Below are positions 23,115-55,862 of a DNA stretch of 64,000 bases, in pieces (the first letter of the stretch is position 1; each line of letters begins with the position of its first letter). The notes below the pieces were generated by a model. That model worked only from the letters and a program-made list of their open reading frames with translations, was not told the DNA's origin and made no database searches. Source of the stretch: Bacteroidota bacterium. Lineage in GTDB: Bacteria > Bacteroidota > Bacteroidia > JABDFU01. The DNA lies in assembly GCA_016183775.1 (NCBI GenBank), contig JACPDY010000079.1, positions 1 to 64,000 of the forward strand. The letters are read 5' to 3'. The translations under genes were made by a program, and so were the position numbers.

Positions 23115-26100
23115 TTAAGGTGAGATAAGATTTACATTTATGATGCAGCCGTTTTTATCTTTAATATTAATGTTATAAGAACCCGGGCAAAGCTGGTTTT
23201 TATACCTGTTCACATATCCATCCGGCCAGGAATAGGAATAAGGACTTGTTCCACCGGTCGCTGTAACCATTATCCATTCTTTGCAGCCGCAACTATTGCA
23301 GTTGGCTGTGCCCTTCGTAAATAACCCGGTTATTGCAGGAGGTGAAATTACTGTAACAATATTTACTGCAGTACAGCCTTTTGCATCTGTAACAGTTACA
23401 GAATAACTGCCGGCACTTAATCCTGTTATTGTTTGTGTTGTTTGTCCATTATTCCAATTATAGGTATAAGGAGAGGTGCCGCTTCCGGGATTTATCTGGG
23501 CACTCCCATTGGTGCCCCCACTGCATGTTGTATTGGTTGGTAAAGCTGATGCCGTGATCGCCGGATTTACAGTTACTACTGCCATTGAAGTGGAGGTGTT
23601 TCCGCCGGAGTCGGTTATTGTAATAGTATAAGAGGTGGTTGATGAAGGACACGGACTTATATTTGATGTTGTTGCGCCATTGCTCCATAAATAAGTATAT
23701 GGGCCGGTGCCTCCCGAACCGTTTGATGTTACTGTGGCGCAGGAGCCCTCGCATATTGAAGTGCCCGTCGCTGTTACTGTTGGGCCGGCACAATTTATTA
23801 TGGTTATATTACTGGTTACCGTGTCCATACATGTTCCGTTGCTGACGGTATGCCTGATGCTGTAATTCCCGGTTGTTAAAAAGGTGTAAGAAAAGTCGGC
23901 AGTTGTTCCTGTTACATTTGCCGGAGGTATTGGTGAGATAAGCCAGTTGTATGTTATCCCGGTTCCGGGTGCTGTACCGGTATTCGTAAAGTTTACTGTT
24001 GCACCAAGGCAGGCAGTGGAAGATGTAAATGCTGCACTTAACCCCGGAGATTTTGCTACGTCTGCAGTTGCTGTTTTTGTGCAGCCATTTGCATCCGTAA
24101 CCAATACAGTATATGTTTGTCCGGGCAAATTCACAGCTTCAAATTGAGTACCTCCCACAGGCGACCATACATAATTATAATTACTTCCGGCCAATGGTGT
24201 TCCGCCTGATGCAGTGACTAAAGCAGAACCGTTACTATAATTACAGGTTGTACTATCTGTGGAGGTAAATAATAAAATAGCGGTTGGTTGTGTAATCTGC
24301 ATGATAGCCGTTGAAGAACAGCCGCCGGGATCCCAGACCACAACAGTATATGTGCCGGCCGCCAACCCAGTCGCAGTTGATGTGGTTTGAACCGGCAGTG
24401 TTGACCATGAATAAGTATATGGTCCTGTTCCGGTTACAATGTTTGCCACAGCCGACCCGCTGTTGACACCATTACATAACAGATTGTTTTGCGAAGTGCT
24501 TATCGTTACTCCATTGGTATTGGTCACAGTAACCACCGCGGTTTGAGAAAGTTTCTGACAGGAATTATCAATAACTGTCACAGTATATGTACCCGCAACT
24601 AATCCCGTTATTGTTGAAGTTGTCCCGCCCGTATTCCATAAATAAGTGTAGGGCGCTGTGCCATTTGTAATAGTTGTTACACCGGCAGTACCTGTGTTGT
24701 TTCCGCAAGAAGTGTTGGTGCCGGCGGCTGTAAGCACAATAGGAGGAATGGCGGGGCAAATATTCACTAACCCGGAAAGTGAAGCCACAAAGCCATTCCC
24801 GCAGGCCAGTATTTCCTGGTTAAGGCCAAAGCATATATCATATACAGCTCCTGTAGTCGGCGCCGAAGAAACCAGTGTTAAATTTGAATTGTATTTTTTT
24901 ACATCTATTCCGGTTCCAACATAAACATTATCGCAGCTGTCAACAAGTACACCGGAGTTTTGGTCGGCTGTACCTCCTGCAACGGTTATACTGTTAATGA
25001 GTGCTCCTGTTGATGCATTTCTTTTAATAAGGGTGATACCATTATAGGTGTACACGTAGCAATAAGAGGCAGCTATACAGCTGCGTCCTCCGGGTACATA
25101 ACCTGTGGAATAAACAGCGGTCGTATAGGCAGGTCCGAGGTAATTAAAATTAGCAGATGTGTACCCGCTGCTCACATCCCATGTATTTGTAAAGCCGGGT
25201 CCAGGCGAAAATCCGATCGTTCTGCTCAAGCGAGAACTTGTTGCCCACTGTGATTGCGGTACTGTCAGGCAATAATAATTTCCATTCGGTGAAAGCGTAA
25301 GTCCCCTTATTTCGCCCGGAGTTCCGGCTCCAAAAACAGGAGTCATCCCGGTGAATGCACCATTCAATAAGCCAATAGAAAAAACTCCTGCTGAGCCACC
25401 GACGAATGAATTGAGGATTTCCGGCGCACCTGCGCCCAGGAGTTTTGTTCTTGGAACATTAAAGCATAGACTAAATGCTTCCGCATTAAATATACCTGCA
25501 GTTGCATTTTGATTACTATACACAAGTACACCGGCATTATTGATCCTGTTTATAAAACCATTACTGGATCCATTTGTAATGAAAGAGCTTCCGTTGAAAC
25601 TGACTGCAAGATCTCCATACCAAAAAGAAGGAAATGGCCAACCTGTGTTATAGGTCCATATGGGAGTGCCTGTTGTATTGTATTTTCGTAACGTATAATT
25701 TGAACCTGCGCCAAATACAAATGCATTGCCTGCCAGGTCCCTTTCAATATCAAAAACTCTGTTTGGTGCTGCATAAGCAGGATTGACTGTCCAAGGATCG
25801 ATGATTATGGTCTTTGTGTCATCATATCTATCTATGTGAAAACTTACAATGTTGTTCCTTACTTCAAAACGGGAACCGATATTTTTTTTGCTTTCACCAT
25901 AAAATGTAATCGGCGTATGATCCACAATATTTCCCAGGGGAGTGGTTATAACTATGTTACCTTCTTTATCCATTTTTACTTTCCCATCTCCGGTATATTT
26001 CATTTTTACTTTGCTCACATCAGCACCGGGGTGAACTATAAGCGTATATTTTGTTCCTGATGTCAAACCGAGCGGAGTTGAAGAATCGTGAAATGTATAC

Positions 26101-26660: not shown

Positions 26661-26735
26661 TTAATAAGTCATTTAATGAATTAGGGCTCTCTTTTGTGTT
26701 GTCTGTATTAAAGATAGTGATTTCCCGGTTTGGTC

Positions 26736-29700
26736 TTAAGGCGCTCCCAGACTGACATTTATACTGCATCCATTCTTATCTTTAATATATATTGTATAAG
26801 GGCCCGGGCAAAGTTGGCTCTTGTACCTGTTTAAATATCCGTCGGGCCAGGAGTAGGAATACGGACTTGTACCCCCTGTAGCGTTGACCATTATCCATTC
26901 TTTACAGCCGCATTTTGTACAATTTGCTGTGCCTTTGGCGAATTGACCAGCTAATGGCGGTGGTGATGTTATCGTTGTTGTGGTTACAGCGGTGCACCCT
27001 TTTGTGTCAGTAACTGTAACAGAATAATTACCACTTGTTAAACCTGAAACCGTTGAACCTGAAACCAAGTTGCTCCAATTGTATGTATAGCCTGGAGTAC
27101 CACTGCCTCCTGTTGCTATTGCCGAACCATTTGTCCCTGCATTGCAGGATATATTTGTTGGCGAAACTGTTACTGTTACAGCCGGATTGACTGTTACTAC
27201 TGCAGTTGAAGAGGATGTATTTCCTCCAGTATCTTTTATTGTTACAGTATAAGTTGTTGTAATGGCCGGGCAGGGATTTATGTTTTGTGAAGTCGCACCG
27301 GTATTCCATGAATAGGTATATGGACCTGTACTGCCCGCACCACTTGATGTTATTGTAGCACAGGTACCCGGGCACACTGTACTGCCGTTAGCTGTTACAG
27401 TGGGCACATTACAGTTTGTTGTTGTTATAAGAGTTTTAACCCTGTTAAAACATGATCCATTGGTAACTGTGTGCTCAATGGAATACGTACCGGATGTTAA
27501 AAAAGTATAACAAAAATTGGTAGTTGTGCCACTCACATTTGTTGGCGTAATAGGGGAGATAAGCCAGGTATGGTTTATGCCCGAACCCGTTGAGCCTGTA
27601 TTTGTAAAACAAACCTGTTTACCAACACAAGCGGGCGGATTTGTAAATGTTGCTGAAAATGGACTTGTATTGGAAATGTTAAACGTTTGGGTAGTGGGAC
27701 ACCCAATCCCATTGGTGACAGTTACAGTATAACTGCCTGGCGCCAGGCCCGAAACTGTTTGGGTTGTTGCGCCATTGCTCCAGTTATAAGTATAAGCTGC
27801 TATTCCACTGGTGATAGAAACTGTCGCGCTGCTGGATATTGCACAACTACTATTCGTACTTGAACCGGAAATAATTGTAGCCTGTGGCTCAGTTAATGTA
27901 GTTTGCGCGCTATACGAACACCCATTGGCGTCTGTTGTCGTTACCACATAAGTACCTGTTCTCAACCCCGATATTGTTGATGTGTTCTGTCCATTGCTCC
28001 AGCTATATGTGTAAGCACCGGTTCCACCTGAACCTGTCGCCGTGGCAGCCCCGTTACTTAAACCATTACAGGTAACATTGTTTAGCGTAGATGCCTGCGC
28101 TGAAAGCGGGCAAGCACATGGGTTAACTATAATGTAGGAGGTTTTTAAAACACTATCCTTTTTACAGGCAGTAGTAAGTGTTAGCTGTACCGGATAGGAG
28201 CCCGGCACAGCATATGTTATTGAAGGATTTTGGCTAACTGAACTTGAAGGACTCCCTCCGGTAAATGACCATTTAAATTTATAGCCTGTAGTGTCGCAGG
28301 AATAATTTATTATTGGTGTAAATATAACAGGCATATTACGGCATACGCTGGTAGTGCTGGAAGTGTAATTTAAGCCAAGTGTTTTGGCTTCACATAAATT
28401 TATACATAACTGGTTTATATAAACATCATAACCATAAGTACCTACACCACCAAAAACTGTTTGAAAGGCACCTGCTGTCACCGGATATCCGTTGGCATAG
28501 GTGGTGCCAGTAAGGTATAAGTTATTTCCATTGATCGCGATTCCAAGGTTCCCGCCTTCTATATCGTCTTCAGCTAAACCTCCAACATATGTCAGGCAGG
28601 TTTGAACTCCTGCCGGATTATATTTTGCAATAAACGCATCCTCAGCTCCTCCAAAATCTGACTGGATAGCACAAGTACTCAATGGATAACCGGCAGGATT
28701 ATCCTCAAATTCTCCGGCTACATAAATATTGTTGTTTATATCTGTAGCCAGGTTTGCAATTGAATTTCCCCAATTGACCCCTCCGCCTCTAATATATGTC
28801 GCCCACTGCCGTATTCCGACAGTATTAAACTTGGCTATAAAACCATTATTTGATTCAGTTAAAGTTGCTTGATAAGCCCCCAAAGAAGCTATGTTACTTG
28901 TAGAGTTGGTGGTAGCCCCTAATATTACATTACCCGATAAATCTGTGGTTATGCAGACATAATATGTTTCATATCCCGTTCCGCCGTAAAAAGTGCTCCA
29001 CAAGCGGGCCCCGGTTGGGCTAAACTTAACCAGAAATGCATCAAGTCCAAATGCACCGCTTCCCCCAAAAACCGGTTGATGTACTGTATTGCCGGGAACA
29101 GCGCCGACAGGAAAGTCTGAAGAGTAGGTCACCCCTCCGGCATATACGTTACCCGAGAAAACATCGTAAGCAATGCTATAAACACCCTCTCCACTTTGAT
29201 TAGAACCACCTAAGTATGTACCCCAGATACGATTACAATTTGAATCAAATTTTACAACAAAGGCGTCACCTATACCATTTAACACTGGTTGAAAAGAACC
29301 AGCCGTTGAAATCGCGCTTGGTGATGAGGTAGCGCCGCCCATATAAACATTATTGCCATCAGTACAGACACTAAAACCTGTTGAGCCGCCGGAACCACCA
29401 TAGTAAGTGGCCCACACTCTTGCTCCTGAAACATTAAATTTCAAAAGGAAGGCATCACGGGAGCCTCCCATAGCCATCTGATGCCCTGAAATAACGGGGA
29501 AATTAGCAGACTTTGTCGGGCCTGTAATATAGCTATTTCCAGCGGCATCAGTAGCCACATCGGCGCCATGCTCATCGTCCGATCCGCCATAATAAGTAGC
29601 CCATTGCCGGATACCATTTATATCCATCTTAACCATAAACGCATCACCAGCTATCTGCGCCGTAACACCGCCGCCTCCATAAGTTGTTTGAAATGCCCCT

Positions 29701-30797
29701 GCTGAAACAGGAAAATTAAGAGATGAAGCTTGCCCTGTAAAAATACAATTACCAGATGGATCAGTTGTTACTGAATGACCCCAATCAAAAGTTGTTCCCC
29801 CATAATAAGAAGCCCATGGATCAATAACCAAAGGAAATTCCGGGTTCCAGGTTCCAAGTTCAAATGTTACTTCGTAGATATGAGATTTGAGACATGAGAT
29901 ATGAGAATTTTTTGTAATGTTGCTTTTTTCTCTCAAGTCTAACATCTCACATCTCATATCTAATTTGTATTTGGCTTTTACATCAACAATTTTTCCATTG
30001 ATATTTTGGTAAACTTTAGGTATTGATTCGTAAAATTTATTTACACTGGTTTTAATTTCTAAATTTCCTTCGCGGTTAATATTTATATTTTCCGCTCCTT
30101 TCCAGCGGAGTTTTATTTGGCCGGGGTCGGCATGAGGTTGTATAATAAGATCGTATTTTATTCCGTTTTGTTTGTCGCCATAATAAATGACATCAATATT
30201 GTTGTAAATATTTTTATAGGTTACTTTATTGTATTGCTTTATGTTTAACACTCCATTGGGGCAGTGGGCATAGTAATAATTGTTGTAGCCGTCTATTTCG
30301 TCTTCGTTTGCCGGCTTTATACTGCTGTTACAATCTTCAAAGTCCATATCCACACGATGTACTTTAATGCTTTTCGATTGCATTAATTCATCTTTTTTTT
30401 TTTGTTCGTCAGATTCTGTCAGTGTTCCTGCATTAATTAATTCTTCTATCTGTTCGTTTACATCGTGTATTACTTCACCTATATTGCAGTATACATAACT
30501 GATACCTGTTTTGCGTAAATAAACATCCGCGCCAGCGCCAGCACCTTTATATAATACATCAGGGTAGAACTTACCGTTCATATCGGCTATTTGTCCTTTG
30601 TTAGGAGTAAAATTCATTCCGGCTCCGTTCAGACCATGCGGGGCCGAAGGGTTGCCACGCATGTTATGAGAAAATTGTGAATGTTCTTTTTTGAAGCGCC
30701 CATGTTTACCTGAATTTTCAGCTATTGAAAGGGTCGGTGCCAGGCAGAATGTTGCCAATAAAATTATCGTTGTGATGAGATCGGATTTGTTTTCCAT
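26736..30797 (-). CDS. Giant secreted SBBP/PKD/SprB-repeat protein (giant 2)
   Basis: About 1353 residues from ATG 30797, chosen because MENKSDLITTIILLATF...LSIA gives a clean signal peptide; the longer frame adds 19 residues without signal character. The N-terminal domain runs from GAGMNFTPNKGQI to LVIDPWASYYGG. SBBP propeller repeats follow to about residue 800 (WATYYGGSDDEHGADVATDAAGNSYITG type, many copies). Next come a PKD domain (CDTTGYKFKWSFTGGSPSSS), SprB-like repeats, a second PKD-like domain and the C-terminal module (CTKCGCKEW, LCPG, KDKNGC). The N-terminal domain contains an in-frame inverted repeat (29876-29961). It is closest in its N-terminal half to giants 4 and 6. Surface location is inferred from the signal peptide and repeats. 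Confidence 0.87.
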   Translation of the reverse strand: MENKSDLITTIILLATFCLAPTLSIAENSGKHGRFKKEHSQFSHNMRGNPSAPHGLNGAGMNFTPNKGQIADMNGKFYPDVLYKGAGAGADVYLRKTGISYVYCNIGEVIHDVNEQIEELINAGTLTESDEQKKKDELMQSKSIKVHRVDMDFEDCNSSIKPANEDEIDGYNNYYYAHCPNGVLNIKQYNKVTYKNIYNNIDVIYYGDKQNGIKYDLIIQPHADPGQIKLRWKGAENININREGNLEIKTSVNKFYESIPKVYQNINGKIVDVKAKYKLDMRCEMLDLREKSNITKNSHISCLKSHIYEVTFELGTWNPEFPLVIDPWASYYGGTTFDWGHSVTTDPSGNCIFTGQASSLNFPVSAGAFQTTYGGGGVTAQIAGDAFMVKMDINGIRQWATYYGGSDDEHGADVATDAAGNSYITGPTKSANFPVISGHQMAMGGSRDAFLLKFNVSGARVWATYYGGSGGSTGFSVCTDGNNVYMGGATSSPSAISTAGSFQPVLNGIGDAFVVKFDSNCNRIWGTYLGGSNQSGEGVYSIAYDVFSGNVYAGGVTYSSDFPVGAVPGNTVHQPVFGGSGAFGLDAFLVKFSPTGARLWSTFYGGTGYETYYVCITTDLSGNVILGATTNSTSNIASLGAYQATLTESNNGFIAKFNTVGIRQWATYIRGGGVNWGNSIANLATDINNNIYVAGEFEDNPAGYPLSTCAIQSDFGGAEDAFIAKYNPAGVQTCLTYVGGLAEDDIEGGNLGIAINGNNLYLTGTTYANGYPVTAGAFQTVFGGVGTYGYDVYINQLCINLCEAKTLGLNYTSSTTSVCRNMPVIFTPIINYSCDTTGYKFKWSFTGGSPSSSVSQNPSITYAVPGSYPVQLTLTTACKKDSVLKTSYIIVNPCACPLSAQASTLNNVTCNGLSNGAATATGSGGTGAYTYSWSNGQNTSTISGLRTGTYVVTTTDANGCSYSAQTTLTEPQATIISGSSTNSSCAISSSATVSITSGIAAYTYNWSNGATTQTVSGLAPGSYTVTVTNGIGCPTTQTFNISNTSPFSATFTNPPACVGKQVCFTNTGSTGSGINHTWLISPITPTNVSGTTTNFCYTFLTSGTYSIEHTVTNGSCFNRVKTLITTTNCNVPTVTANGSTVCPGTCATITSSGAGSTGPYTYSWNTGATSQNINPCPAITTTYTVTIKDTGGNTSSSTAVVTVNPAVTVTVSPTNISCNAGTNGSAIATGGSGTPGYTYNWSNLVSGSTVSGLTSGNYSVTVTDTKGCTAVTTTTITSPPPLAGQFAKGTANCTKCGCKEWIMVNATGGTSPYSYSWPDGYLNRYKSQLCPGPYTIYIKDKNGCSINVSLGAP
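29876..29961. repeat. In-frame imperfect inverted repeat inside giant 2
   Basis: Arms of 31 bases (29876-29906 and 29931-29961) match at about 25 positions. They are built from agatatgagat words and are translated as part of a DMRCEMLDLREK...SHISCLKSHIYEV segment. Giants 3 and 5 have no such segment at this point. The same element lies in giant 4 at 39965-40050, and a shorter form in giant 6 near 54935-54982. Confidence 0.8.
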
Positions 30798-31139
30798 AGC
30801 CGAATTAAAGTGCTGCTTCAAAAAAATATGAATATTTGGTCCGGATAAAGCCACTCCATAGAAATTGAAAACTTAACATAAATTACATACCCTTATTTTG
30901 CGGCCTGCACTTTTCATACAAACTAATATAATGAACGTATAATTAGAGGCGAAATTATTCGTCTTCAAAAGTAAATGATGTGATGTTATATTTAATACAC
31001 TAAATAATTGATTTATATATAATTACTATATTATAAGTCAATTATTTATTCCATTATAGATGCTTTTATAAACATCTCAAGAGCTTTAAAATATTAATTT
31101 TTAGAGGGGGGGCAAAAATTGTATACTCAGATTAAGGAG
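30798..31139. other. AT-rich intergenic region between giants 3 and 2
   Basis: No gene is seen. The region must hold the end of giant 3 transcription and the promoter of giant 2 on the minus strand. It contains one clear hairpin (31001-31048) and a small one, agatg/catct (31058-31077). Confidence 0.6.
31001..31048 (-). terminator. Hairpin downstream of giant 3
   Basis: taaataattgatttata (31001-31017) pairs with tataagtcaattattta (31032-31048) with a single mismatch and a 14-base loop. It lies about 90 bp after the stop of the minus-strand giant gene at 31140 and is a plausible terminator despite being AT-only. Confidence 0.5.
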
Positions 31140-34100
31140 TCAGGGAGCCGTCAGATTAATATTTACACTACATCCGTTTTTATCTTTAATATTTATTGTA
31201 TAAGGACCCGGGCAAAGTTGGTTCTTGTACCTGTTCACATATCCGTCGGGCCAGGAATAGGAATACGAGCCAGTCCCACCCGAAGCATTTACCAATACCC
31301 ATTCTTTGCAGCCACAATTTGTGCAGGTGGCGGTTCCTTTTACAAATTGCCCTGTTAAAGCGGGCGGCGAAATTATTGTGGCATTGGAGGTGGCAGTACA
31401 GCCTTTGCTATCTGTTATTGTAACCGTATAAGTTCCTGCACTCAAACCTGAAACCTGGAACCCGGAACCTAATCCATTACTCCAGTTATAAACATAGGGC
31501 GGTGTTCCGCTTCCCGGATTAGCACTCGCGTTTCCGTTGATGCTTCCGTAGCAGGTGGTATTTGTTGAAGTAGTCGTTGCTGTAAAGCCGGTGTTAATTG
31601 TAACAATAGCGGTTGATGTAGCTGTTACCCCGGCAGCATCCCTGATGGTAACAGTATAAGTGGTATTTGCAACAGGACAAGGCGAAATGTTTTGAGTTGT
31701 AGCGCCTGTACTCCATGTATATATATACGGTGTATTTCCTCCCACGCCGTTTGCCGTAACATTAGCGCATGAGCCGGGACATATTGAGCTGCCGGTGGCG
31801 GTGACTGTTGGGGCCGAACAGTTAATTACAGTTACATTATTGGTCGAAGTGGCCTGGCAACCTCCGGTAGTAACTGTGTGTGTAACAGCATAGGTACCGG
31901 TCGTTAAAAAATTGTACGAAAAATTTGGCGTTGTACCGCTTACACTTGCCGGAACAATAGTCCAGCTGTATGTTGCCCCTGTGTAAGTTGCGCCGGTAAA
32001 GTTTACTGTTGTGTTCATGCAAACTGTTGTTCCGGGTGAACTTGTAAAGGTAGCGGCAGGGTTAATTGTTATCGATGCTGTTGATGTGCTTGTAGCTCCG
32101 GCAGCGTCTTTTACGGTTACTGTATAAGTGCTGTTACTTGTGGCGCAGGGCGCAATAGAACTTGTCGTTGCTCCGTTACTCCAACTATAAGTATAAGGTG
32201 CGGTCCCACCTGCCGCGCCTGCTGTAATGGATTTAGCGCAATCACCACTGTTCGCGCATCCTCCTCCGAGAGTTGCAGCTGTTGGAGTGACGGGCGAACA
32301 GTTAACGACGATGACGGTATTTGTAGTGGTGGAAAGACAACCATTCAGGGTTGTATTATGAACAATTGTGAAGGTGCCGGTACCCGGCGGGGTGTTAAAA
32401 GTATATGTAAAAGTATTTCCGGATCCGCTGGTTGTAAACGCCGGTGTAATAGTATAATTATAAAGCTGCCAGGAGTTCCAGGCCGGATTCGTTATACCAC
32501 TGGTATTGGTAAATGTTATTGTGCTTCCAAGGCAAACAACATTTCCAGGTGATATGGAAAAAGTAGAAGAAACCAGGGGGTCGGGAATATACTTTACGGA
32601 ATCATTGTAAGTACATCCCTTAGTATCGGTAATAGTAACTTTGTAAACACCCGCCGAAAGGCCCGATATGCTGTTACTTATTGATCCCGTATTCCATAAA
32701 TAGGTAAACGGAGAATGACTTCCGGAGGCAGTGGCAACAGCTTTTCCGTCATTTTGGCCGCAAGAAGGCGCTGTTACAATCAATGTGGTTGGAGTATAGG
32801 TTAGTTGCACAGTGCCTGTTAAAGTATCTTTGCAATTGTTTCCATCTGTAATAATTACAGAATAAGTATCTCCAATCTTCAATCCGTTTATATCCTGCGA
32901 TGTGGCGCCATTCATCCATTGGTAATTATAAGGAGGCTGGCCTGACTTTACTGTTATATCAACGGTTCCATTTGATCCTGTTGCGCAGTCAGGTGGTAAA
33001 ACGTTCGATAGGTATTCAGACTTGCTGTTTTTTAATATAATAGTTGTTATGCTCTTGCAGCCATTTGCATCAGTTACAGTAACTACATACCTTCCCACGT
33101 CAAGTCCGGTAGCTACATTTGTATTTTGCGGGGATATTGTATTCCAGGAATAGGTTAAAGCCCCTGTCCCGCCTGTTGCAGACACTGTTGCCGTACCATT
33201 GGCATTACCGCATTTTGCATTGGTAAATGTTGAAATAGTTGCTGCAATGCCGGTGCCGGCATTAACCACAATGCTGTCTGTTTTATAAAGGCAATCTTTA
33301 TCGGCAACTGTAACGTAATATTTTCCGCTTGCCAATCCTGTGATCGTGGATGAGGTTTGGCCGTTGCTCCATGTGTAAGAATAGGGCGTTGTTCCTCCTG
33401 TAGCTGTTATTGTAGCGCTTCCGCTATTGCAGTTTGCATTGGTAGCGGTAATGTTTGTTAAAAGTGTTGAACAGAATTTCAGTACCATTCCATCATCGGT
33501 TCCAATTGAAGCATTGTTTGATTGGAAATAAGCACCTCCGCCGGGATTAACTACGGGATTACCTCCGGATTGTGCTTCACCGGTTGCAAGCAGGCATCCA
33601 TTTGGATCAATTGCTACTTCTTCCCCCCAATTGTAATTTCCTCCGTTCCCTCCTCCATAATAGGTGGCCCAGGTTCTTGCGCCCGCCGCGTCAAATTTTA
33701 AAAGGATCCAGGCTGTCCAGGCGTTACCCGTTAAACCTGCCTGAAAAAAAGTCGTACCGCCCGGATTATATGTTGGCATTCCGGGATATGAAGTTCCGGT
33801 TAAATATAAATTCCCGCACTGATCGGTAATTATTCCATTTACAGATTCACCTCCCATACTATTATTGCCTCCGTAGTATGTGGCCCATAGCCGTGCGCCT
33901 GCCGGACTAAACTTTAATATAAACAGGTCATTTCCTCCTCCTCCAAAAGCAGCCTGGTTATATGCGCCAGCCATTGCCTGAGTAGGTAAGCCTCCTCCTG
34001 AAGTTGTACCCGCAACGTAAATTGAACCAAAACTGTCCAGCGTTATATCACTGCCCCAGGTATTGCCGCCATAACAGGTAGCCCATTGTCGTACGCAATT

Positions 34101-35786: not shown

Positions 35787-35855
35787 CGTATTTTAATGAT
35801 TACGTACATTATTTTTTAGCTTCTTGCTTCACAAATTAGCGAAGAGAAAAATGGA

Positions 35856-42416: not shown

Positions 42417-42444
42417 GTTTATTTTAGACGTAGCATTCAGAATA

Positions 42445-45090: not shown

Positions 45091-46656
45091 ATGTCATATC
45101 TGAGTTCCGACGACCTTTTTACACTTATTAAAAGACTAAGCCAATCAGAAAAGAGGCATTTTAAGATTTATGCCTCCAGACATGTAATTGGCGGGGAAAA
45201 TAATTATGTCAGACTTTTTGACGCGATCGACTCACAAAAGGATTATAATGAAGAGGAATTGCTCAAGACAGAAAAGTATATCAGGCAATTGCCTTTACTC
45301 AAAACGAGATTATACAAGATCATATTAAAATGCCTCGAAGGTTTTACCGGCGATATAAAATATGAACTGCGTAGTATGTTGAACCAGGCCGGTTTTTTAT
45401 ATCAAAAGGGATTATTCAGGCAATATTTTAAATTATTGGACAAAGCCTATCAAATTGCTTTAAAGCACGATTTGTATAGTTACATAGCCGAGATAGCTTT
45501 ATTAAAGATTTCAGGGATGGGTAGATCTGGAATAATAGATATTCATGATCTGCAAGAACTATGGGATGATGAGAAACGGGCCACAGATAATTTAATGAAC
45601 CTGACAACATACAAAAAGATATCCAGGGAGTTTGAATTTTACTGGAATGATGCAGGCATGCGGCATCCGGATAAACAAAGGTTGACCGGCATAACCAGGT
45701 TAATGGCATCTCCATTTCTACGAGATGAAAGCAAAGCGATCAATGTAGCAGCAAAAAGGATATTCCATATTATTCATGAAAATTACAATCAGGCAATTGA
45801 TAATTGGGAGCAGGCATATTTACATGGAAAAAAAAGAATAGAATTACTTGACTCGAATCCATACCTGGTTGCGGGTGATCCCAATTTATATTTAGCTTCT
45901 ATGCGTAATATATTAGTTCAATGTTCGGTTTTAAAAAAATATAAGGAAGCAGAAAAATATCTGGATGACATACAAACTGCTGCTGAAAAATACAATTTTA
46001 AGCCCGATGAGCGTGGCAGGGCTTTGATCTTTTTAGGTGTTTATGAGTTTGAAATAGATAGGATTTTATTCCTTGGTGAGTTTGCCAAAGGCTGTACAAT
46101 GATACCTGAGATCGAAAGGAAATTGATTGAACATGAAGAAACAATTTCAGAAGGACATCGGGCACATTTTTATTTATGGATCGTAACACTTTATTTTGGG
46201 GATAAACAATTCAGAAAATCTTTGAAATATCTCAATCAGATTTTGTCTCAATTCAAAGCAATTCAGCAAACAGCAGATAACGATATTTATTGCACGGCTC
46301 TTATTATGTCAATTATTGTTCGATATGAATTAAAGGATTTTGAAACACTTCCGTACATTTTACGAGCCATATACCGTCACTTACGAAAAAAGGAACGGCT
46401 ATTTAAATTTGAAAGCATAGTCCTCGATTTCATCCGTAAAAAATTACCTGCTTTAAATACTTCCAAAGAATTGATAGCTGCATTTGAAATTTTAAAAGGG
46501 GCTATGGAAAAAGCCATGAGAGATCCGGATGAACCAAGACCATTGGTTTATGTCGATTACGTTTGCTGGATCGATAGCAAAATAGATAACAGGTCTTATG
46601 CTGAGGTTGTAAAAGAGGAGGCGAATAAAATAATGAAAGTAAGGACTTCGCTCTAG
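45091..46656 (+). CDS. Helical-repeat (TPR-like) protein of unknown function, copy 3
   Basis: 521 residues, full-length paralogue of the protein at 419 and of the broken copy at 21751. Shared landmarks are the LFTLIKRLSQSEKRHFKIYASRHVIGGENNYVRLFDAI N-terminal block, SPFLRDESKA near residue 210, FLGEFAKG near 330, FRKSLKYLNQIL, SIIVRYELKDFE and the terminal YVDYVCWIDSKIDNRSYAEV. No signal peptide or membrane segment. I do not recognise a function. Its stop lies 21 bp from the stop of the convergent giant gene at 46678, so the two mRNAs may overlap. It diverges from the propeller gene at 44916 across a 174-bp AT-rich promoter region. Confidence 0.8.
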   Translation: MSYLSSDDLFTLIKRLSQSEKRHFKIYASRHVIGGENNYVRLFDAIDSQKDYNEEELLKTEKYIRQLPLLKTRLYKIILKCLEGFTGDIKYELRSMLNQAGFLYQKGLFRQYFKLLDKAYQIALKHDLYSYIAEIALLKISGMGRSGIIDIHDLQELWDDEKRATDNLMNLTTYKKISREFEFYWNDAGMRHPDKQRLTGITRLMASPFLRDESKAINVAAKRIFHIIHENYNQAIDNWEQAYLHGKKRIELLDSNPYLVAGDPNLYLASMRNILVQCSVLKKYKEAEKYLDDIQTAAEKYNFKPDERGRALIFLGVYEFEIDRILFLGEFAKGCTMIPEIERKLIEHEETISEGHRAHFYLWIVTLYFGDKQFRKSLKYLNQILSQFKAIQQTADNDIYCTALIMSIIVRYELKDFETLPYILRAIYRHLRKKERLFKFESIVLDFIRKKLPALNTSKELIAAFEILKGAMEKAMRDPDEPRPLVYVDYVCWIDSKIDNRSYAEVVKEEANKIMKVRTSL

Positions 46657-46677
46657 GTGATGTTAACCATGGTGCTG

Positions 46678-49600
46678 CTACGGTGCTATCAGGTTAATAT
46701 TTATACTGCATCCATTCTTGTCTTTGATATTTATGTTATACGTACCCGGGCAAAGATGATTCTGATACCGGTTGGTGTATCCGCTTGGCCAGGAGTAGGA
46801 GTAAGGGCCTATGCCGCCGTTTGCTGTTACCAATATCCATCCCTTACAACCGCACCCGGCACAGGTAGCGGAACCTTTGGTAAATTGTCCTACTAATGGA
46901 GCGGGTGAAATAATATTGGTGGTTGTAGTGGCCGTGCATCCTTTCGCATCATTCACCGTTACGGTATAATTGCCTGCAGCGAGGCTTGTGGCTGTTTGAG
47001 AAGTTTGTCCGGTGTTCCAAACATAAATATAAGGAGAAGTGCCGCCTCCGGGGCTTGCAAGGGCAGTTCCATTCGTCCCTCCACTGCAGGTTATATTGGT
47101 TGGTGTAACGGTTAAGTTAACAGCAGGATTAACAGTTACTACCGCCGTTGAACTGGCAGTTGCACCTGTATTATCAGTCAGGGTTACCGTATACGTTGTG
47201 GTAATAACAGGACATGGATTTATATTTTGTGTGATAGCACCATTGCTCCAGGAATAATTGTAAGGTGCTGTCCCGCCTGAACCTGTCGATGTTACCGTAG
47301 TGCAAACACCTGCGCATGTTGTATTACCGGTAGCAGTTACCGTGGGTGAAGCAGAGCAGTTAATTACCTGGATGGTTGTTGACACATTATCATAACAGCT
47401 TGCATTCTCGACCGAATGAATGACAGTATAATTCCCCGCCGTTAAAAATGTATAGGAAAAATCAGTAGTGGTACCGGATACAATAGATGTGGAATTTTGA
47501 GAAATAGTCCAGCTGTAGGTACCCGTTGTTGTACCTGTATTGGTAAAAATTACTGGGCTTCCGACGCAAACAACTCCGGCAGGTGATTGTGCAAATGTTG
47601 CAGTTACCGCATTTTGTGCTGTGGCCGTTACGCTACAAGTTTGAATGCCGGAACATCCATTGGCATCAGCAATGGTTACGGTATAAGTACCGGTTACCAA
47701 AGGCCCATCCCCTGCAGATCCGGAAGTTGTAATAGTTTTCCCCGTACTAAAAGTGAAGGCGTAAGGGGCGGTACCTCCTGCCGCAGCTATACTTACATTG
47801 GCACCTTTGCCGCATGTTGAATTGTAGGGCGTTACAGTATAGCTTAAGGGCGCCATAGCTGTAACAGGCACTGCTTGTGTTGAAACGCAGCCATTAGCAT
47901 CAGTTACAGAAACAATATAATTGCCAACTCCAAGCCCGGTTGCAGTGGTTCCCGTTTGTCCGCCGGCAGCTGCACCCCAATTATATGCGTAGGGTACAGT
48001 ACCACCGCTTGCACTTATTGTTGCAGTACCGGTATTTTTACAGGCCGATGTTTGAGTAAAACCGGAGAAATTAGCTATTAAGGATGTTGATTGGGTAATA
48101 ATAAAACTCTGCTGATAGGTACAGCCGCTCGCGTCTTTAATTGTAACAATATAATTGCCGGAAGTGAGACCGGTAATTCCCGCGCCTGTTTTTCCATTGT
48201 TCCATATATAATTATAGGGAGACGTTCCTCCTGTTGGGAAAACAGTTGCTGTACCATTACTTCCTCCATTACAGGAAACATTTGTTTGCGTACCTGTGGC
48301 CGATAAATTCCCAACAGGGGCGGTAATCGTAAAGTAGGCCGTATCCCTGTTACATACATCATCCGTTACTTCCACCCAATAAGAGCCTGGACATAATCCA
48401 CCACCGGTATTTGATGTGCTATTGGTGTTTAATACCTGAGTGCCATTGCTCCATATATAGTTATAAGGCGCTACACTGCACGTTGCACTTATGCCTACGG
48501 TGGCAGTACCATTACACAAGCAACTGCCCGCATTCACCTGGCTTTGTGTAAAGCTGGGAGGTGGGTCGGGAATGAACTTTAGTATATAGCCCTGAGTATA
48601 ACCCCCATTGAATGAAGCTGCTCCAAAGGACCTGTTATTGAAAAAAGCTCCCCCACCTGGATCTACAAAGGGTAAGCCGGTATTGGTTCCGGATGCATAC
48701 TCCCAGAACACTCCTACAACAAAAAGGTTATTGTAAGGATCTACTGCCAGCGCACCCCTAAAGTCATTACCTGTAGAGCCAATGAAAGTAGCCCATAATA
48801 ATTTTCCTGTTCTGCTGCTAAATTTAGTAACGATAACATCTCCGGGAAGTTCTTCGGAATGTTTCCATCCATAACCCCCTCCCCAGGTGTTATCGCAATA
48901 AGAGCCGCAGCCAGGATTATAGATCGTTATATCAGCCGATTCGGTGCGGAATGCAAGATATAAGTTACCGCAATTATCAAATTCTATTTCATCGCATACC
49001 ATATTTAGTTCATCTTCATCCACTCCTGCATTTGGAGCGGTCGGTATTCCGCTTCCTCCATAATAGGTTGACCAGGTAAGCGCACAGGAAGAGTTGAACC
49101 GGGTAATAAACATGTCAAATAACCCCGATAATGTTGCATCGTAATAAGCTGTACCCCAGGTCTGGGTTGGGAAATTCACTGAAGTTGTCGAACTCGTTAC
49201 ATAAATATTGTTGTTCAGGTCAAGTCCGATCAACGAAATGCCCGGCGTATCACGTCCCGCTTCCGCACCGCTTCCGCCAAGGAATGTGGACCATTGAAGC
49301 TGTCCTGTAGCAGTAAACTTTGCAACATATGCGTCGTACTTACCTCCGTTATAAGAGTTATCATTGTATGCACCTCCCAGTGATTGTGTAGGGAAATTGC
49401 CCGAACCAGTTGGCCCGGTAACATAAATGTTTCCGGAAGGATCGGTTGTTAAACTGGTTACCCAATCATCCGAGCTTCCTCCCAAATAAGTTGACCATAG
49501 AAGCTGGCCTGTATTATCAAACCCGGCTATATATGCATCATCCGCACCATTGTAAGTATTATCGAAATAAGCAGCGCCCCATGCCTTGGTAGGAAAATCG

Positions 49601-51084
49601 GTAGAAGTTGTCCATCCGGCTATGTAAATATTTCCGTTCGGGGCAATATTTATTGATGTACCATTATCCCAGTTGCTTCCTCCGAAATGTGTTGCCCATA
49701 TAAGGGTGCCGGTATTTGAAAAACGGAGAATAATAGCATCCGCTCCAATTCCAAATGATCCGGCAGGATTATACGTTGGATTATAATAAGCTGATCCCCA
49801 TGCCTGGGTGGGAATAGCTGCATGGGTAGCACCTGTAATATATATATTGTTAGCCTTATCAATAGTTAGAAAATTGGGAGAAGTAGTATTGCTGGCAGCA
49901 CCATAATAAGTACTCCAGGTAAGCACGCCTTTGTTTGTAAATCTGGCAATAAACAGTTGTTTCATAGCCGCACTATAGTATGCGCTTCCCCAGGGCATAA
50001 GAGGAAGGCTGCCCACTGTTTGCCCGGAAACATATACATATCCATTTGCATCGCAATCCACCGTCACGGGATTTACGGATGATCCATTACCACCGCTCAT
50101 GTCGTAAAAATATGTTCCCCACCAAAGTTGTGGATCAATAACCAGGGTTTTGGAATTATCATAATCGTCAAGCGAAAAAGAAATCTCGGATTCCTGCTCC
50201 TTTGGTTCGCCGGAAGCAAATGTTCGTATAAATTTTGCAGGGATGTTTTCCCGGCTTTTATCCATATAGCACATCGGCGTATTTTCAGTAAGTGTTCCTA
50301 AATGTGTTCTAATATTTATGTTGCCTTCTGTGTCGATGTCCAGGTCCTTTTCCGAACGGTACAATAATTTTATTTGTTTGGGGTTAGCGCCCGGGTGAAC
50401 AACGAAATCATATTTAAAACCTTTGCTGTCCGAATTGTACAATACCCAATCAATGCCGGGATAAATTTCTTTGATCGTTATTTTTTTGTAAGTATGTACG
50501 CCAAGAATACCTTCAGCAGCCTCCTGCTCGGTATAATAATTGCCCGTCCAGACGGACGCGCCTTCTGTGATTACATTTTCCTTTTTTATGCTGGCACCCG
50601 TTAAGTTCATGTCAATTCGTAAGCATTCATATCTAATCTGCTCGCGCATTTTTTTCAAAAGTTCGTGCTCAATAAAATTGTCAAAATTATTTTCTTCCTC
50701 TTCCCTTCCCGAATTCTTCTCAGGCAATGTGTCCGGCTTTATAAACATATACGAAAGTCCTTTTTCGGTAACATACATATTCACCCCGGGCGCTTCTGTT
50801 TTAAAAAGGATAAAAGGTGTGGGCTTGCCCTCACTATCCATCATCTGCCCTTTGTTTTCCAGAAAGCCTGGTTGCTGCTGGGCCGATATCCATTGCTGTG
50901 CCTGTGCTTTCAGCTTGGGATCAGTGACTTTTTTAAGTCCATCTTCTTTCGCTTGCTTTCCTTGATCAGCTGTTCCTCCAAGGAATGGAGATTGCGAATA
51001 CATGTTACCGGAGATAAGCAGTGCAGCTATGAAAAAGCGGAACATTTTTATAATAATCATTTGGATAAACATCATTTTGCTCAC
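46678..51084 (-). CDS. Giant secreted SBBP/SprB-repeat protein (giant 5)
   Basis: Up to 1468 residues. The longest frame starts at GTG 51084 and overlaps the stop of giant 6 (GTGA), but MFRFFIAALLISGNMYSQ at 51045 is the better signal peptide, and both may be used. N-terminal domain from PGFLENKGQMMDSEG to TLVIDPQLWWGTYF (about 320), SBBP-type blades to about 830 (WSTYLGGSSDDWVTSLTTDPSGNIYVTG), SprB-like repeats including CNGGSNGTATVFPTGGTSPYN, a PKD-like domain (VCVGSPVIFTNTGTTTGTYSW) and the C-terminal module (CAGCGCKGW, LCPG, KDKNGC), where Gly replaces the Glu of the others. The close junction with giant 6 suggests cotranscription. Confidence 0.87.
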   Translation of the reverse strand: MSKMMFIQMIIIKMFRFFIAALLISGNMYSQSPFLGGTADQGKQAKEDGLKKVTDPKLKAQAQQWISAQQQPGFLENKGQMMDSEGKPTPFILFKTEAPGVNMYVTEKGLSYMFIKPDTLPEKNSGREEEENNFDNFIEHELLKKMREQIRYECLRIDMNLTGASIKKENVITEGASVWTGNYYTEQEAAEGILGVHTYKKITIKEIYPGIDWVLYNSDSKGFKYDFVVHPGANPKQIKLLYRSEKDLDIDTEGNINIRTHLGTLTENTPMCYMDKSRENIPAKFIRTFASGEPKEQESEISFSLDDYDNSKTLVIDPQLWWGTYFYDMSGGNGSSVNPVTVDCDANGYVYVSGQTVGSLPLMPWGSAYYSAAMKQLFIARFTNKGVLTWSTYYGAASNTTSPNFLTIDKANNIYITGATHAAIPTQAWGSAYYNPTYNPAGSFGIGADAIILRFSNTGTLIWATHFGGSNWDNGTSINIAPNGNIYIAGWTTSTDFPTKAWGAAYFDNTYNGADDAYIAGFDNTGQLLWSTYLGGSSDDWVTSLTTDPSGNIYVTGPTGSGNFPTQSLGGAYNDNSYNGGKYDAYVAKFTATGQLQWSTFLGGSGAEAGRDTPGISLIGLDLNNNIYVTSSTTSVNFPTQTWGTAYYDATLSGLFDMFITRFNSSCALTWSTYYGGSGIPTAPNAGVDEDELNMVCDEIEFDNCGNLYLAFRTESADITIYNPGCGSYCDNTWGGGYGWKHSEELPGDVIVTKFSSRTGKLLWATFIGSTGNDFRGALAVDPYNNLFVVGVFWEYASGTNTGLPFVDPGGGAFFNNRSFGAASFNGGYTQGYILKFIPDPPPSFTQSQVNAGSCLCNGTATVGISATCSVAPYNYIWSNGTQVLNTNSTSNTGGGLCPGSYWVEVTDDVCNRDTAYFTITAPVGNLSATGTQTNVSCNGGSNGTATVFPTGGTSPYNYIWNNGKTGAGITGLTSGNYIVTIKDASGCTYQQSFIITQSTSLIANFSGFTQTSACKNTGTATISASGGTVPYAYNWGAAAGGQTGTTATGLGVGNYIVSVTDANGCVSTQAVPVTAMAPLSYTVTPYNSTCGKGANVSIAAAGGTAPYAFTFSTGKTITTSGSAGDGPLVTGTYTVTIADANGCSGIQTCSVTATAQNAVTATFAQSPAGVVCVGSPVIFTNTGTTTGTYSWTISQNSTSIVSGTTTDFSYTFLTAGNYTVIHSVENASCYDNVSTTIQVINCSASPTVTATGNTTCAGVCTTVTSTGSGGTAPYNYSWSNGAITQNINPCPVITTTYTVTLTDNTGATASSTAVVTVNPAVNLTVTPTNITCSGGTNGTALASPGGGTSPYIYVWNTGQTSQTATSLAAGNYTVTVNDAKGCTATTTTNIISPAPLVGQFTKGSATCAGCGCKGWILVTANGGIGPYSYSWPSGYTNRYQNHLCPGTYNINIKDKNGCSININLIAP

Positions 51085-54000
51085 GGCGCACTTACCGTTA
51101 TATTTATACTACATCCATTCTTGTCTTTAATGTTTATTGTATATGAACCCGGACAAAGATTATTCTTATACCTCTTACTATAACTGTCCGGCCAGGAATA
51201 AGAATATGGACTTGTGCCACCGGCTGCATTTACCATTATCCATTCTTTGCAGCCACAACCAGTGCAACTGGCGGTACCTTTGGTAAATTGTCCAACTAAC
51301 GGCGGTGATACAATTACTGTGGCAGTGGTTGTCGCTGTTTTTCCCCCGGCATCTGTTACAGTTAAAGTATAAGTAGTGGTTAAGGCCGGACAGGGGTTTA
51401 TGTTTTGAGTTGAGCTGCCATTGCTCCATGCATAAACATAGGGAGTTGTGCCTCCGACAGGATTGGATGTCACTGCAGCGCAGGAGCCCGAGCATATTGA
51501 AGAGCTTGTAGCAGTTACGGTTGGCGCTGCTGAACAGTTAATTACATTTATCGTGTCTCTGGCAACGTCACCGCATGTTGCGTTGCTGACAGTGTGGTTA
51601 ACAATATAATTGCCTGCAGTTAAAAAAGTATAAGAAAAATTGGATGAACTACCACTGACAATTGGAGGATTGTTAATAGTCCAGCTATAGGTTGCTCCGG
51701 GAAATGTTGTTCCTGTATAATTTACGGTAGTACCTGTGCAAACAGTTCCGGCCGGTGGAGTTTTTGTAAATGCAGCCAATGGGCCAACTGTTACAGCAAC
51801 AGTAGCGCTGTTTGTGGCCCCGGTAGCATCCGTTACCGTTACTGCATAGGTGCCATTACTTACAGGACAAGGAAATATTTTTTGTGTGGTAGCCCCGGTA
51901 TTCCAGAGATATGAATAAGGAACTGTGCCGCCCGTCACTGCTGCTGTAATGCTTTTGCTGCAGTCCCCTCTTGGAATACATGAGCCTCCAACAATTCCTA
52001 CTCCCGGTTTACCGGCAGGGCAATTTACCGCAACAACGGTATCTATTGTTTCGGCCAGGCATCCGTTCTGAACAGTTTTATGGCTGACTATGTATGTACC
52101 AGGATTGTTAAAGGTAGCACTGAAATTATTGGTATTTGAGGAACCAAAGCCATAAATCAGCCAGCTTCCCCCGGATAGTCCGCTGGTATTAGTAAATGTT
52201 ACAGAAGTTCCAACACAAACAGTTTTAGCAGGGGATATTGTAAATGATGAAGGCGGGGGCGGGCCCTGGGGTACATTCACGCTGGTTGATGCAGTGCATC
52301 CATTTCCATCAAATACAGTAACAGTATATGTTCCCGCTTTTAACCCGGTAAGTGTACCTGTTGATCCTGCTCCCGGCAATCCTGAGCTCCATGAATACTG
52401 GTATCCGCCTGGCGCTCCGGATGGTGACACAGTCGCGCTTCCAATACCTCCCGAAGTACAGTTATTGGGTACAGAACTTGTTGGTAATGCAAGGGAAGGA
52501 TTGGTTCCCACAGTAACTGCAGTTGTTGCCGTACATCCGCTTAAATCTGTAACAGTTACTGTATATGTTCCTGTTGTTAAATTGGTAATAAGAGAATTGG
52601 TGCCTCCTGTATTCCATAAATACATATAGGGAGGTGTACCATCCATAGGAACAATACCTGTATACCCATCGGATTTTCCGGGACAAACATTCCTGCCTGA
52701 AACAGACAAGGTTATTGTTACCGGGGTTGGTGCAGGCACATTAGCCACCTGTGTACCAGTACAACCTTTGCTGTCCGTTACCGTTACAGTATAATTACCT
52801 GCAGTAAGATTTTTGGCTATCGCCGTTGTTTGTCCATTATCCCATAAATAAGTATAGGGAGCTATGCCGCCGCTTGGTGTTGCCGTTGCAATACCTTTAT
52901 TGCTTCCGTTGCAGGTAGAATTGTCGGCGGTAGTACTTACACTTACTGTCGGTAAAATAATAACAGTTGTACTTGCGGTGCTTGTGTTTCCAACAGCGTC
53001 TGTTACCGTTACGGTATAGGTTGTATTTACCAAAGGACAGCTTGAAATATTTTGTGTTAATGCCCCGGTATTCCAACTATAATTATATGGTGCAGTTCCA
53101 TTGCTGCCCGTAGCAGATACAGTGGAACACTTTCCCGGGCAGGTTCCCGGTGCAGCGGCTGCAACCGTAATACCACAGGGTGTCACATTAATATAAGAAG
53201 TTTTTGTAAGGCTGTCTTTTTTACACTGTGTAGTAAGCACCAATTTAACAGAATAGTTTCCGGCAGCAGGATAAGTAACTGATGGGTTCAACTCCGTAGA
53301 AGTAGCGGGACTTCCACCTGTAAAGGTCCACTCGAATTTGTATCCGGTAGTGTCGCATGTGTTGTTTACTGAAGGTGTATATGTAACAGGCTTGTTAACA
53401 CATACGTTGGTAGCGCTCGCCGTATAGCCCAAACCAAGCACCTTGGCTTCGCATAAATTAATGCAGAATTTATCCATAAAGGCATCCATTCCTCCGCCGC
53501 CATGTATAGTCTGAAATGCACCGGCTGTTACCGGGTATTGACCCTGGGTGTATCCGGTAATATATAAGTCGTTTGCAAAAATAGCCATGTTGTTAGCCCC
53601 GGTATTTTCATATTCATCTTCCTGGGGCCCTCCTATGTATGTTCCACAACTACGGATTCCATTGGTATTAAACTTCACAATATAAAAATCTTCCACACCG
53701 GCAAAATTGGGCTGATAAGCACAGGAGAGACTCCCGGGATAAGTTCCTCCATTCATGTCTTCCCATTCCCAGCACACATAGCTATTCCCGGCAGCATCTA
53801 TGGCAAAGCCATTCAAACATTCATCATTATTGCCTCCCACATATGTGGCCCACACACGGGCGTAGGAAGAATTGAATTTAATAAGAGCAACATCACCATA
53901 GCTGGTGCCGCCACCACCACCACCGTATGCAGGTTGGTAAGCTCCCGGAGTTGAAATATTAGTTGTAGAAGCAGTACTAATACACAAAATAACATTACCT

Positions 54001-55862
54001 GAAGCATCAACCGCAACCCCGCTTCCAGTACCACCATCATTAGCCGGCCCTCCATAACAGGTCGACCATAATGGAAAACCTGTGGCGGGATTTAGTTTGA
54101 TAAGAAATGCATCATATGGAAAACTTGCGCCCCCGAAACCAACTTGTACAAAAGCCCCGCCAGGATTAACCAGGGGGAAATCAGTGGAAGTTGTATTACC
54201 ACAAGCAAAAATATTATTGGTCTGATCGACGCATATTCCATAGCCCCCATCCGACCCGCTTCCTCCATAGTATGTGGCCCATTGTCTTATCCCTTTATTG
54301 TTAAACTTTACAATAAAGGCATCTGAAAAGTTGTTTAATGCCGCTTGGTAAGGATTTTTGGTTGGGAAATTGGTAGAGGATGTATACCCCGTAAAAATTA
54401 CGTTATTTGCTGCATCTGTAATTATATCATATCCGCCATCGGCCTGCGAACCGCCGTAATAAGTAGACCATACCAAAAGTCCGACCGGAGAAAACTTTGA
54501 AATATAGGCATCTCCATTCCCGCCTGCCGCCTGCGTATACGATGTTGGAAACCATGTCTTAGCCGGAAAATCAGTGGATTTGGTGGATCCTGTTATATAA
54601 ATATCGTTGTTTTTGTCAGCAGTAATACTCATACCGAATTGGCTTTCAACTAAACTCCCTCCAATATAAGTTCCGAAAATACGTGCACCATTCGGATCGA
54701 ATTTTACCACATACGCATCCCCTTGCCCTTTATAAAAGTTTTGATAGGCTCCTGCATTTACAGGAAAATTCATGGAATACACAAGTCCGTTAAAAACAGG
54801 ATTGCCGGCAGCATCTGTAGCTGCTCCAACACCTCTTTCTTCGCCACTTCCCCCATAATAGGTGTTCCAGGTAGCAGGGTCAATGATCAAAGGGTAGTCA
54901 GGGTTGTAAAGTCCCAATTGGAAAGTAGTTTCATAGATATGAGATGTGAGATGTGAAGTTTGAGACTCATGTCTCGCATCTAATTTATATTTTGCTTTTA
55001 CATCTATTACTTTTCCATCAATTACCTGGTAGACTTTTGGTATGGATTCGTAAAATTCATTTATACTGGTTCTTATTCTTAATTTTCCATTTTTAATTAT
55101 TAATTTTTCTGCGCCGGTCCACCGCAGTTTTATCTGATTGGGGTCTGCATGCGGGTTTACGATCAGATCATATTTAGTCCCTTTTTCACTGCCACCATAG
55201 TATTGTATGTCAATATTGTTGTAAATATTTTTGTACGTGATCTTATTATATTGTCGTACATCAGTTACTCCCTGCGGGCAATGCGGGTAATAGTAATTGA
55301 GGGATCCTACGGCCGCATCTTCCTCCTTCACTGACACTTCGACTCCGCTCAGTGTGCCAGTTCCGGAGGACACGTCCTCAATGGTTTGCATAGAGCTGTT
55401 TGCGCCCACAAAATCCATATCAACGCGATGCACTTTCAGGATTTGCTTTTGGTTAAGCTCTTCTTCTTTTTGTTGTTTGTTTTGAGCAGTTATTTGTCCG
55501 GATATTTCCAATTCTTCCAGTTGCTCTTTTACTTCATTCATTACTTTAATCAAATTGCTAAATACATAGCTCAAACCTGTCTTTCGCAGGTATATGTCAC
55601 TTCCCTTGGTCGAACTTTTGTATAATATATCAGGACGAAGATGGTTATCGATATCAATTATCTGGCCTTTGTTTTGAGTAAATAACATACCGGCTCCCCC
55701 ATGCGGGGCAGCAGGGTTGCCAGGTACTTTCCGGGTAAATTGTGTTCGATCTTTTTCACCGGGAGTTCGCTTGTCATTGCCGGCTAAGGAAACCGACGGC
55801 AGCAGCCATACAGCAATTTGCAGTTGCAAAATTGGAATGAACGATCTGCCGGTTAATCTCAT
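51081..55862 (-). CDS. Giant secreted SBBP/PKD/SprB-repeat protein (giant 6)
   Basis: 1593 residues. Leader MRLTGRSFIPILQLQIAVW...VSLAGN, N-terminal domain GAGMLFTQNKGQI to LIIDPATWNTYYGG (about 325), SBBP repeats to about 800 (WATYYGGSGSDGGYGICVDQTNNIFACG), PKD (CDTTGYKFEWTFTGGSPATS), SprB-like repeats, PKD-like domains, and the terminal module (CTGCGCKEW, LCPG, KDKNGC). It lacks the last ordinary SprB repeat found before the module in giants 2-5. Its first half is closest to giant 4. A DVSSGTGTLSGVEVSVKE insertion in an acidic linker matches a short DNA repeat. Location at the cell surface is inferred. Confidence 0.87.
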   Translation of the reverse strand: MRLTGRSFIPILQLQIAVWLLPSVSLAGNDKRTPGEKDRTQFTRKVPGNPAAPHGGAGMLFTQNKGQIIDIDNHLRPDILYKSSTKGSDIYLRKTGLSYVFSNLIKVMNEVKEQLEELEISGQITAQNKQQKEEELNQKQILKVHRVDMDFVGANSSMQTIEDVSSGTGTLSGVEVSVKEEDAAVGSLNYYYPHCPQGVTDVRQYNKITYKNIYNNIDIQYYGGSEKGTKYDLIVNPHADPNQIKLRWTGAEKLIIKNGKLRIRTSINEFYESIPKVYQVIDGKVIDVKAKYKLDARHESQTSHLTSHIYETTFQLGLYNPDYPLIIDPATWNTYYGGSGEERGVGAATDAAGNPVFNGLVYSMNFPVNAGAYQNFYKGQGDAYVVKFDPNGARIFGTYIGGSLVESQFGMSITADKNNDIYITGSTKSTDFPAKTWFPTSYTQAAGGNGDAYISKFSPVGLLVWSTYYGGSQADGGYDIITDAANNVIFTGYTSSTNFPTKNPYQAALNNFSDAFIVKFNNKGIRQWATYYGGSGSDGGYGICVDQTNNIFACGNTTSTDFPLVNPGGAFVQVGFGGASFPYDAFLIKLNPATGFPLWSTCYGGPANDGGTGSGVAVDASGNVILCISTASTTNISTPGAYQPAYGGGGGGTSYGDVALIKFNSSYARVWATYVGGNNDECLNGFAIDAAGNSYVCWEWEDMNGGTYPGSLSCAYQPNFAGVEDFYIVKFNTNGIRSCGTYIGGPQEDEYENTGANNMAIFANDLYITGYTQGQYPVTAGAFQTIHGGGGMDAFMDKFCINLCEAKVLGLGYTASATNVCVNKPVTYTPSVNNTCDTTGYKFEWTFTGGSPATSTELNPSVTYPAAGNYSVKLVLTTQCKKDSLTKTSYINVTPCGITVAAAAPGTCPGKCSTVSATGSNGTAPYNYSWNTGALTQNISSCPLVNTTYTVTVTDAVGNTSTASTTVIILPTVSVSTTADNSTCNGSNKGIATATPSGGIAPYTYLWDNGQTTAIAKNLTAGNYTVTVTDSKGCTGTQVANVPAPTPVTITLSVSGRNVCPGKSDGYTGIVPMDGTPPYMYLWNTGGTNSLITNLTTGTYTVTVTDLSGCTATTAVTVGTNPSLALPTSSVPNNCTSGGIGSATVSPSGAPGGYQYSWSSGLPGAGSTGTLTGLKAGTYTVTVFDGNGCTASTSVNVPQGPPPPSSFTISPAKTVCVGTSVTFTNTSGLSGGSWLIYGFGSSNTNNFSATFNNPGTYIVSHKTVQNGCLAETIDTVVAVNCPAGKPGVGIVGGSCIPRGDCSKSITAAVTGGTVPYSYLWNTGATTQKIFPCPVSNGTYAVTVTDATGATNSATVAVTVGPLAAFTKTPPAGTVCTGTTVNYTGTTFPGATYSWTINNPPIVSGSSSNFSYTFLTAGNYIVNHTVSNATCGDVARDTINVINCSAAPTVTATSSSICSGSCAAVTSNPVGGTTPYVYAWSNGSSTQNINPCPALTTTYTLTVTDAGGKTATTTATVIVSPPLVGQFTKGTASCTGCGCKEWIMVNAAGGTSPYSYSWPDSYSKRYKNNLCPGSYTINIKDKNGCSINITVSAP
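55329..55358. repeat. In-frame short repeat element inside giant 6
   Basis: The word acacttcgactccgctcagt is typical of dispersed Bacteroidota repeats and shares cttcgact with the element at 40741. It is translated as the TGTLSGVEVSV part of an ~18-residue insertion absent from giants 2 and 4 at the same linker. A small palindrome, gaggac/gtcctc (55366-55379), follows. Confidence 0.65.

Follow-up and report, generated by a model that had tools for sequence, protein, structure and literature searches.

The window, a stretch of 64,000 nucleotides from a Bacteroidota genome (assembly GCA_016183775.1; 4.54 Mb, 97.7% complete), contains six giant genes, which are paralogues arranged in tandem arrays with remnants in between (Table 1). 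The six proteins share a terminal module of 73-79 residues with five invariant cysteines, which in every giant stand at positions -61, -58, -56, -24 and -10 relative to the last residue. An initial annotation, made from the sequence alone, had described one C-terminal module on all six proteins, and the equal distances between the cysteines and the stop in the six minus-strand frames bear this out. The stop codon, which had been placed within two residues of the final proline, in fact follows it directly. The consensus proposed for the module stands overall, although its leading SPP is not strict (VSPP in giant 6, SPAP in giant 5), and the G-rich PYSYxWP stretch is present but is not specific to the module, as it belongs to the ordinary SprB core. 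The two module remnants reported near the giants are real.

Table 1. Giants, terminal modules and module remnants of the window
Feature	Positions	Strand	Content and remarks
Giant 1	23115-26660	-	signal peptide-like start, DUF7948, SprB and PKD-like repeats, module
Giant 2	26736-30854	-	DUF7948, SBBP propeller, PKD, SprB, module
Giant 3	31140-35786	-	DUF7948, SBBP propeller, SprB, module
Giant 4	35856-40790	-	DUF7948, SBBP, PKD, SprB, module; without clear signal peptide in this frame
Giant 5	46678-51084	-	DUF7948, SBBP, SprB, PKD-like, module
Giant 6	51081-55862	-	DUF7948, SBBP, PKD, SprB, module
Module of giant 1	23118-23354	-	stop 23115-23117
Module of giant 2	26739-26975	-	stop 26736-26738
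Module of giant 3	31143-31379	-	stop 31140-31142
Module of giant 4	35859-36095	-	stop 35856-35858
Module of giant 5	46681-46917	-	stop 46678-46680
Module of giant 6	51084-51320	-	stop 51081-51083; 73-residue core modelled by AF2
Orphan module remnant	22510-22743	+	complete module with its own stop; no protein upstream
Truncated module remnant	21641-21736	-	second half only; LWPG replaces LCPG

Scans of the giants against Pfam and NCBIfam, including the models TIGR04183/PF18962, TIGR04131 and NF033708, did not detect a sorting domain in the module. Five further secreted proteins encoded in the window have type A sorting domains of the type IX secretion system (T9SS), as had been annotated; one of them (42445-44916) scores 21.5, below the cut-off of 23.

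The module recurs throughout the genome. Among the stretches extracted from it, matches to the module at more than 95 bits number 144, a count of paralogues and not of independent events, and 141 of them finish exactly at a stop codon, with proline as the last residue in all 141; the remaining three are extended by five residues or frameshifted. The next matches are broken copies with 75, 70 and about 50 bits, and no complete ordinary SprB repeat exceeds about 40, a gap that, together with the number of copies, places the recurrence far beyond chance. No strong copy lies inside a protein, either among these matches or in the loci drawn from named genomes, and all 140 complete modules examined contain exactly five cysteines, in agreement with the invariance first noted in the window. 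A signal peptide-like start, called by a simple hydrophobicity rule and not by SignalP, was found in 106 of 117 complete module open reading frames over 400 amino acids. Only two of the 106 are lipobox-like, and lipoprotein anchoring of the module proteins was rejected on this basis. DUF7948 is carried by 99 of the 113 module proteins scanned, and the passengers comprise DUF7948/SBBP, Kelch, PKD and other starts. Together the module reading frames amount to about 144,000 codons, or roughly 9% of the genome. The same genome has at least 150 matches to type A sorting domains beside its 144 modules and about ten DUF7948 proteins with type B, which is an extreme number of terminal-domain proteins for a genome of 4.5 Mb.

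To establish the distribution of the module, searches covered 80 relatives, two orders, and 396 genomes each from the class and from the phylum, with overlap between the sets. Within the genus, strong copies occur only in the window's genome and two others (G002 and G003). Elsewhere they are found in G028 (three copies), whose order consists of two genomes only, and in six of the seven genomes in the order to which G027 belongs (ten copies). More than 400 other Bacteroidota genomes yielded no strong copy at the strict thresholds of the broad searches, which would miss divergent relatives. In G028 and the order of G027 the module takes a variant form, CxCPC...LCDG...DANGC, which is always C-terminal and ends unrelated proteins, including M43 peptidases and lamin-tail proteins. 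The module region of JAEUTS01 (Bacteroidia bacterium isolate new MAG-335) is identical to one of G002. As far as seen, the module-bearing genomes are draft assemblies in many contigs. All eight module genomes tested have a match to SprA (TIGR04189) above the cut-off, and the PorV and PorP/SprF families are present in module genomes.

T9SS cargo has been reviewed under three classes, types A, B and C, with the export signal at the extreme C-terminus (PMC10202324). The C-terminal domain contains both a secretion signal and a targeting signal, and PorV receives type A domains, cognate PorP/SprF carriers those of type B (PMC12618676, PMC9143113). The strongest evidence for the module as a sorting domain is its replacement of type B. 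It is absent from three congeneric genomes, G001, G004 and G005, and although this absence rests on assemblies that are 56-72% complete, it is backed by 25 closed DUF7948 proteins, 24 of which end in type B and one in type A (G001 and G004). By NCBIfam, type B forms 34 of 38 DUF7948 C-termini, comprising these 24 and ten from the window's genome, where about 100 DUF7948 proteins end in the module and ten closed ones in type B. The same kind of DUF7948 protein thus ends in either domain. In a second case of replacement, two neighbouring genes of G080 (L166) have near-identical passenger stretches, and the one at 3788-7573 ends in type B, the other, at 7677-8963, in the module.

Type B (TIGR04131; Pfam CHU_C) resembles the module in its extreme C-terminal place, in its DUF7948 and lamin-tail-type passengers, and in ending long, repeat-rich secreted proteins. 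The module, however, has no sequence match to type B over the domain and lacks the YDRWG/WDG/GNVTLLR motifs, and a profile comparison with type B C-termini matched only the repeat preceding the type B domain. Type B, whose known carriers are PorP/SprF proteins, has no comparable five-cysteine pattern. Type A (TIGR04183, PF18962), which is abundant in the window's genome, is likewise a small terminal beta-sandwich (PMC11285876) exported by the T9SS and is recognised by PorV (PMC12618676), but it is not homologous to the module (profile comparison, probability 4). Type C (NF033708, ChiA) is also a rare terminal domain that is neither A nor B (PMC10202324), and a search with NF033708 gave no match on the module. 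A sortase signal of the LPXTG/PEP-CTERM type was ruled out, as the last 79 residues, by reading, contain neither a hydrophobic helix nor a basic tail.

Profile comparison relates the module to SprB repeats (PF13573-type) with a probability of 99.8 and an E-value of 2e-28 over 71 columns and, judged by sequence, the module is a descendant of these repeats. The initial view of the module as an SprB repeat with an added CxxCGC knot was therefore right in essence. The four-cysteine subtype of SprB repeat is homologous over the whole length of the module, with the same Ig-like core and four of the five cysteines in common. The module differs in its fixed terminal position, where SprB repeats are internal and in tandem, in an extra central cysteine, in the conserved KGTAxC, KEW and RYxN, and, in this genus, in the terminal proline. 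When the module is aligned with 74 SprB repeats from other Bacteroidota, every repeat has Cys1 and Cys5; Cys3 and Cys4 are equally frequent (61%), the set of Cys1, Cys3, Cys4 and Cys5 is found in 45 of 45 four-cysteine repeats, and Cys2 is found in none of the 74. By this co-occurrence, four cysteines of the module probably form two disulfides, C1-C5 and C3-C4, as in the four-cysteine repeats, and the same logic suggests that the central Cys2 is without a partner inside the domain. Cys2 lies one residue from Cys3 and forms with it a Cys-Xaa-Cys pair, CGC here and CPC in the other lineages.

The AF2 model of the giant 6 module core is a six-strand Ig/PKD-like sandwich with a mean pLDDT of 86.9. 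Because its alignment contained the 74 SprB repeats, the model depicts the shared fold and is of little use for the loop specific to the module (residues 11-20, mean pLDDT 73). A model from ten near-identical modules (pLDDT 52) was discarded. A fold search of the PDB returned Ig/PKD-like domains only, none with an E-value below 0.001, and the fold is generic.

The initial annotation had proposed that the module is a C-terminal domain in its own right, standing where known T9SS cargo have their sorting domain, and had named three findings that would speak against it: a mainly internal position, occurrence in genomes without a T9SS, and an existing family model. None of the three was encountered, as the module is terminal, its genomes have SprA, and neither Pfam nor NCBIfam holds a model for it; the expectation that it would sit on proteins with signal peptides is also borne out by most of the complete frames. 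These sequence features make it probable that the module is a class of tag, for export or surface attachment, that has not been described before. The replacement of type B, the strictly terminal position, the unrelated Sec-exported passengers, and the restriction to genomes with SprA point to a further T9SS class, and it is likely that the module is a new kind of C-terminal sorting or targeting domain, interchangeable with type B.

The evident descent of the module from SprB repeats, and the one or more SprB-type repeats that precede it in the proteins inspected, would also fit a module that is only an end-capping repeat, stabilising the C-terminus of the stalk while the export signal lies elsewhere. 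Such a role is unlikely. Type B occupies the same place in sister species, and a mere cap would leave about a hundred proteins without the known signal or a replacement for it. The module also ends proteins in which a single SprB repeat precedes it, and SprB stalks elsewhere have no such conserved caps: the patterns used to scan the named genomes are common to ordinary SprB repeats, which make up most of the matches, and in the 80 loci obtained the only terminal high-scoring copies are the module itself.

A purely post-export anchor, in which export proceeds by another route or a cryptic signal and the odd cysteine serves to cross-link the protein at the surface of the cell, would account for the odd number of cysteines, one of them specific to the module. 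There is a precedent of sorts in the T9SS/gliding apparatus, where Cys-Xaa-Cys pairs of SprF and PorG make disulfides with GldK (PMC12635249), and the likeness to CGC and CPC is by motif only. Those pairs, however, sit in the periplasmic tails of membrane proteins, whereas the cysteines of the module are in cargo. Moreover, the described cargo classes have their export signal at this very place (PMC10202324), and losing type B removes the known one, which makes an anchor with no part in export quite improbable.

Among the modules, mean amino-acid identity is 0.73 while identity at four-fold sites is 0.39, near saturation against the 0.29 expected from codon usage if the sequences were unrelated, and the module is thus kept by selection and not by recent copying. 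Although the giants are tandem paralogues with remnants between them, recent duplication or gene conversion giving a uniform C-terminus of no special function is very improbable, as the four-fold sites rule out recent conversion, all five cysteines are invariant, conservation is far lower in the repeat that immediately precedes the module in the same proteins (0.42 against 0.71), and the same five-cysteine end is found on unrelated proteins in other orders.

If the module is a T9SS sorting domain, the protein would cross the inner membrane by Sec, consistent with the signal peptides seen, and the SprA translocon would be the site at which the T9SS recognises the folded Ig-like module at its C-terminus. 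Hand-over to an outer-membrane carrier, as of type A to PorV and type B to PorP/SprF, would then set the location on the surface. A part for the odd Cys2 in covalent attachment is plausible, as the odd number of cysteines and their predicted pairing are compatible with it, and one may speculate, prompted by the SprF and PorG pairs, that the Cys2-Cys3 pair makes a redox link to a partner. Of the redox or lipid linkage suggested in the initial annotation, the former is thus favoured indirectly by the odd, module-specific cysteine, and no observation favours the latter. The fullest form of this scheme would be a fourth T9SS class derived from a surface-adhesin repeat, with Cys2 in a disulfide to a dedicated outer-membrane carrier, about 9% of the genome exported and covalently fixed to the surface, and type B displaced; taken as a whole it is doubtful. 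None of the 16 full-length PorP/SprF-like genes of the window's genome is tied to a module gene in the short flanks inspected; several adjoin type B genes and some stand alone.

How the different T9SS signals are recognised, and whether their destinations differ, has been raised as a question in review (PMC10202324), and a fourth class replacing type B on otherwise similar proteins would provide a natural experiment on it. Current models would miss this T9SS cargo, which would comprise about 140 proteins of this genome and, in other lineages, the M43 peptidases and lamin-tail proteins. The module would also illustrate how a repeat from the interior of an adhesin can turn into a sorting domain.

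Several features were observed beside the module genes. In G028, two of the three module genes (L160, L162) adjoin a cluster of type B, PorP/SprF-like and PorE/OmpA-like genes, an adjacency that may be chance given the 34 PorP-like genes there, and a 287-amino-acid protein upstream of one G028 module gene has no Pfam match. In each of three inspected genomes from the order of G027 (L163, L165, L167), the module M43 peptidase lies near a protein of 413-449 amino acids whose C-terminus is type B-like. A second cysteine-rich SprB variant, CxCNG ... LCPG, is found deep inside giant 5 and recurs in L041, L051 and L067, located N-terminal to ordinary SprB repeats. An IS transposase-like gene, identified by reading, adjoins a biosynthetic cluster in the window (10232-11629, plus strand), and such mobile DNA may contribute to the reshuffling of the giants. 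Finally, a cytoplasmic, weakly TPR-like family of about 520 amino acids is represented in the window at 419-1969 (plus), 45091-46656 (plus) and, as a fragment, 21751-22584 (minus). The family is found again in 31 of the extracted loci (L043, L056, L058, L064, L067 and others), its members mostly 21-40% identical, and one member in G001 (L277) has a DUF7948 gene of type B nearby. A divergently oriented gene of this family stands within 900 bp upstream of 21 of the 71 module giants for which that flank is available, and the family is possibly a divergent regulator.
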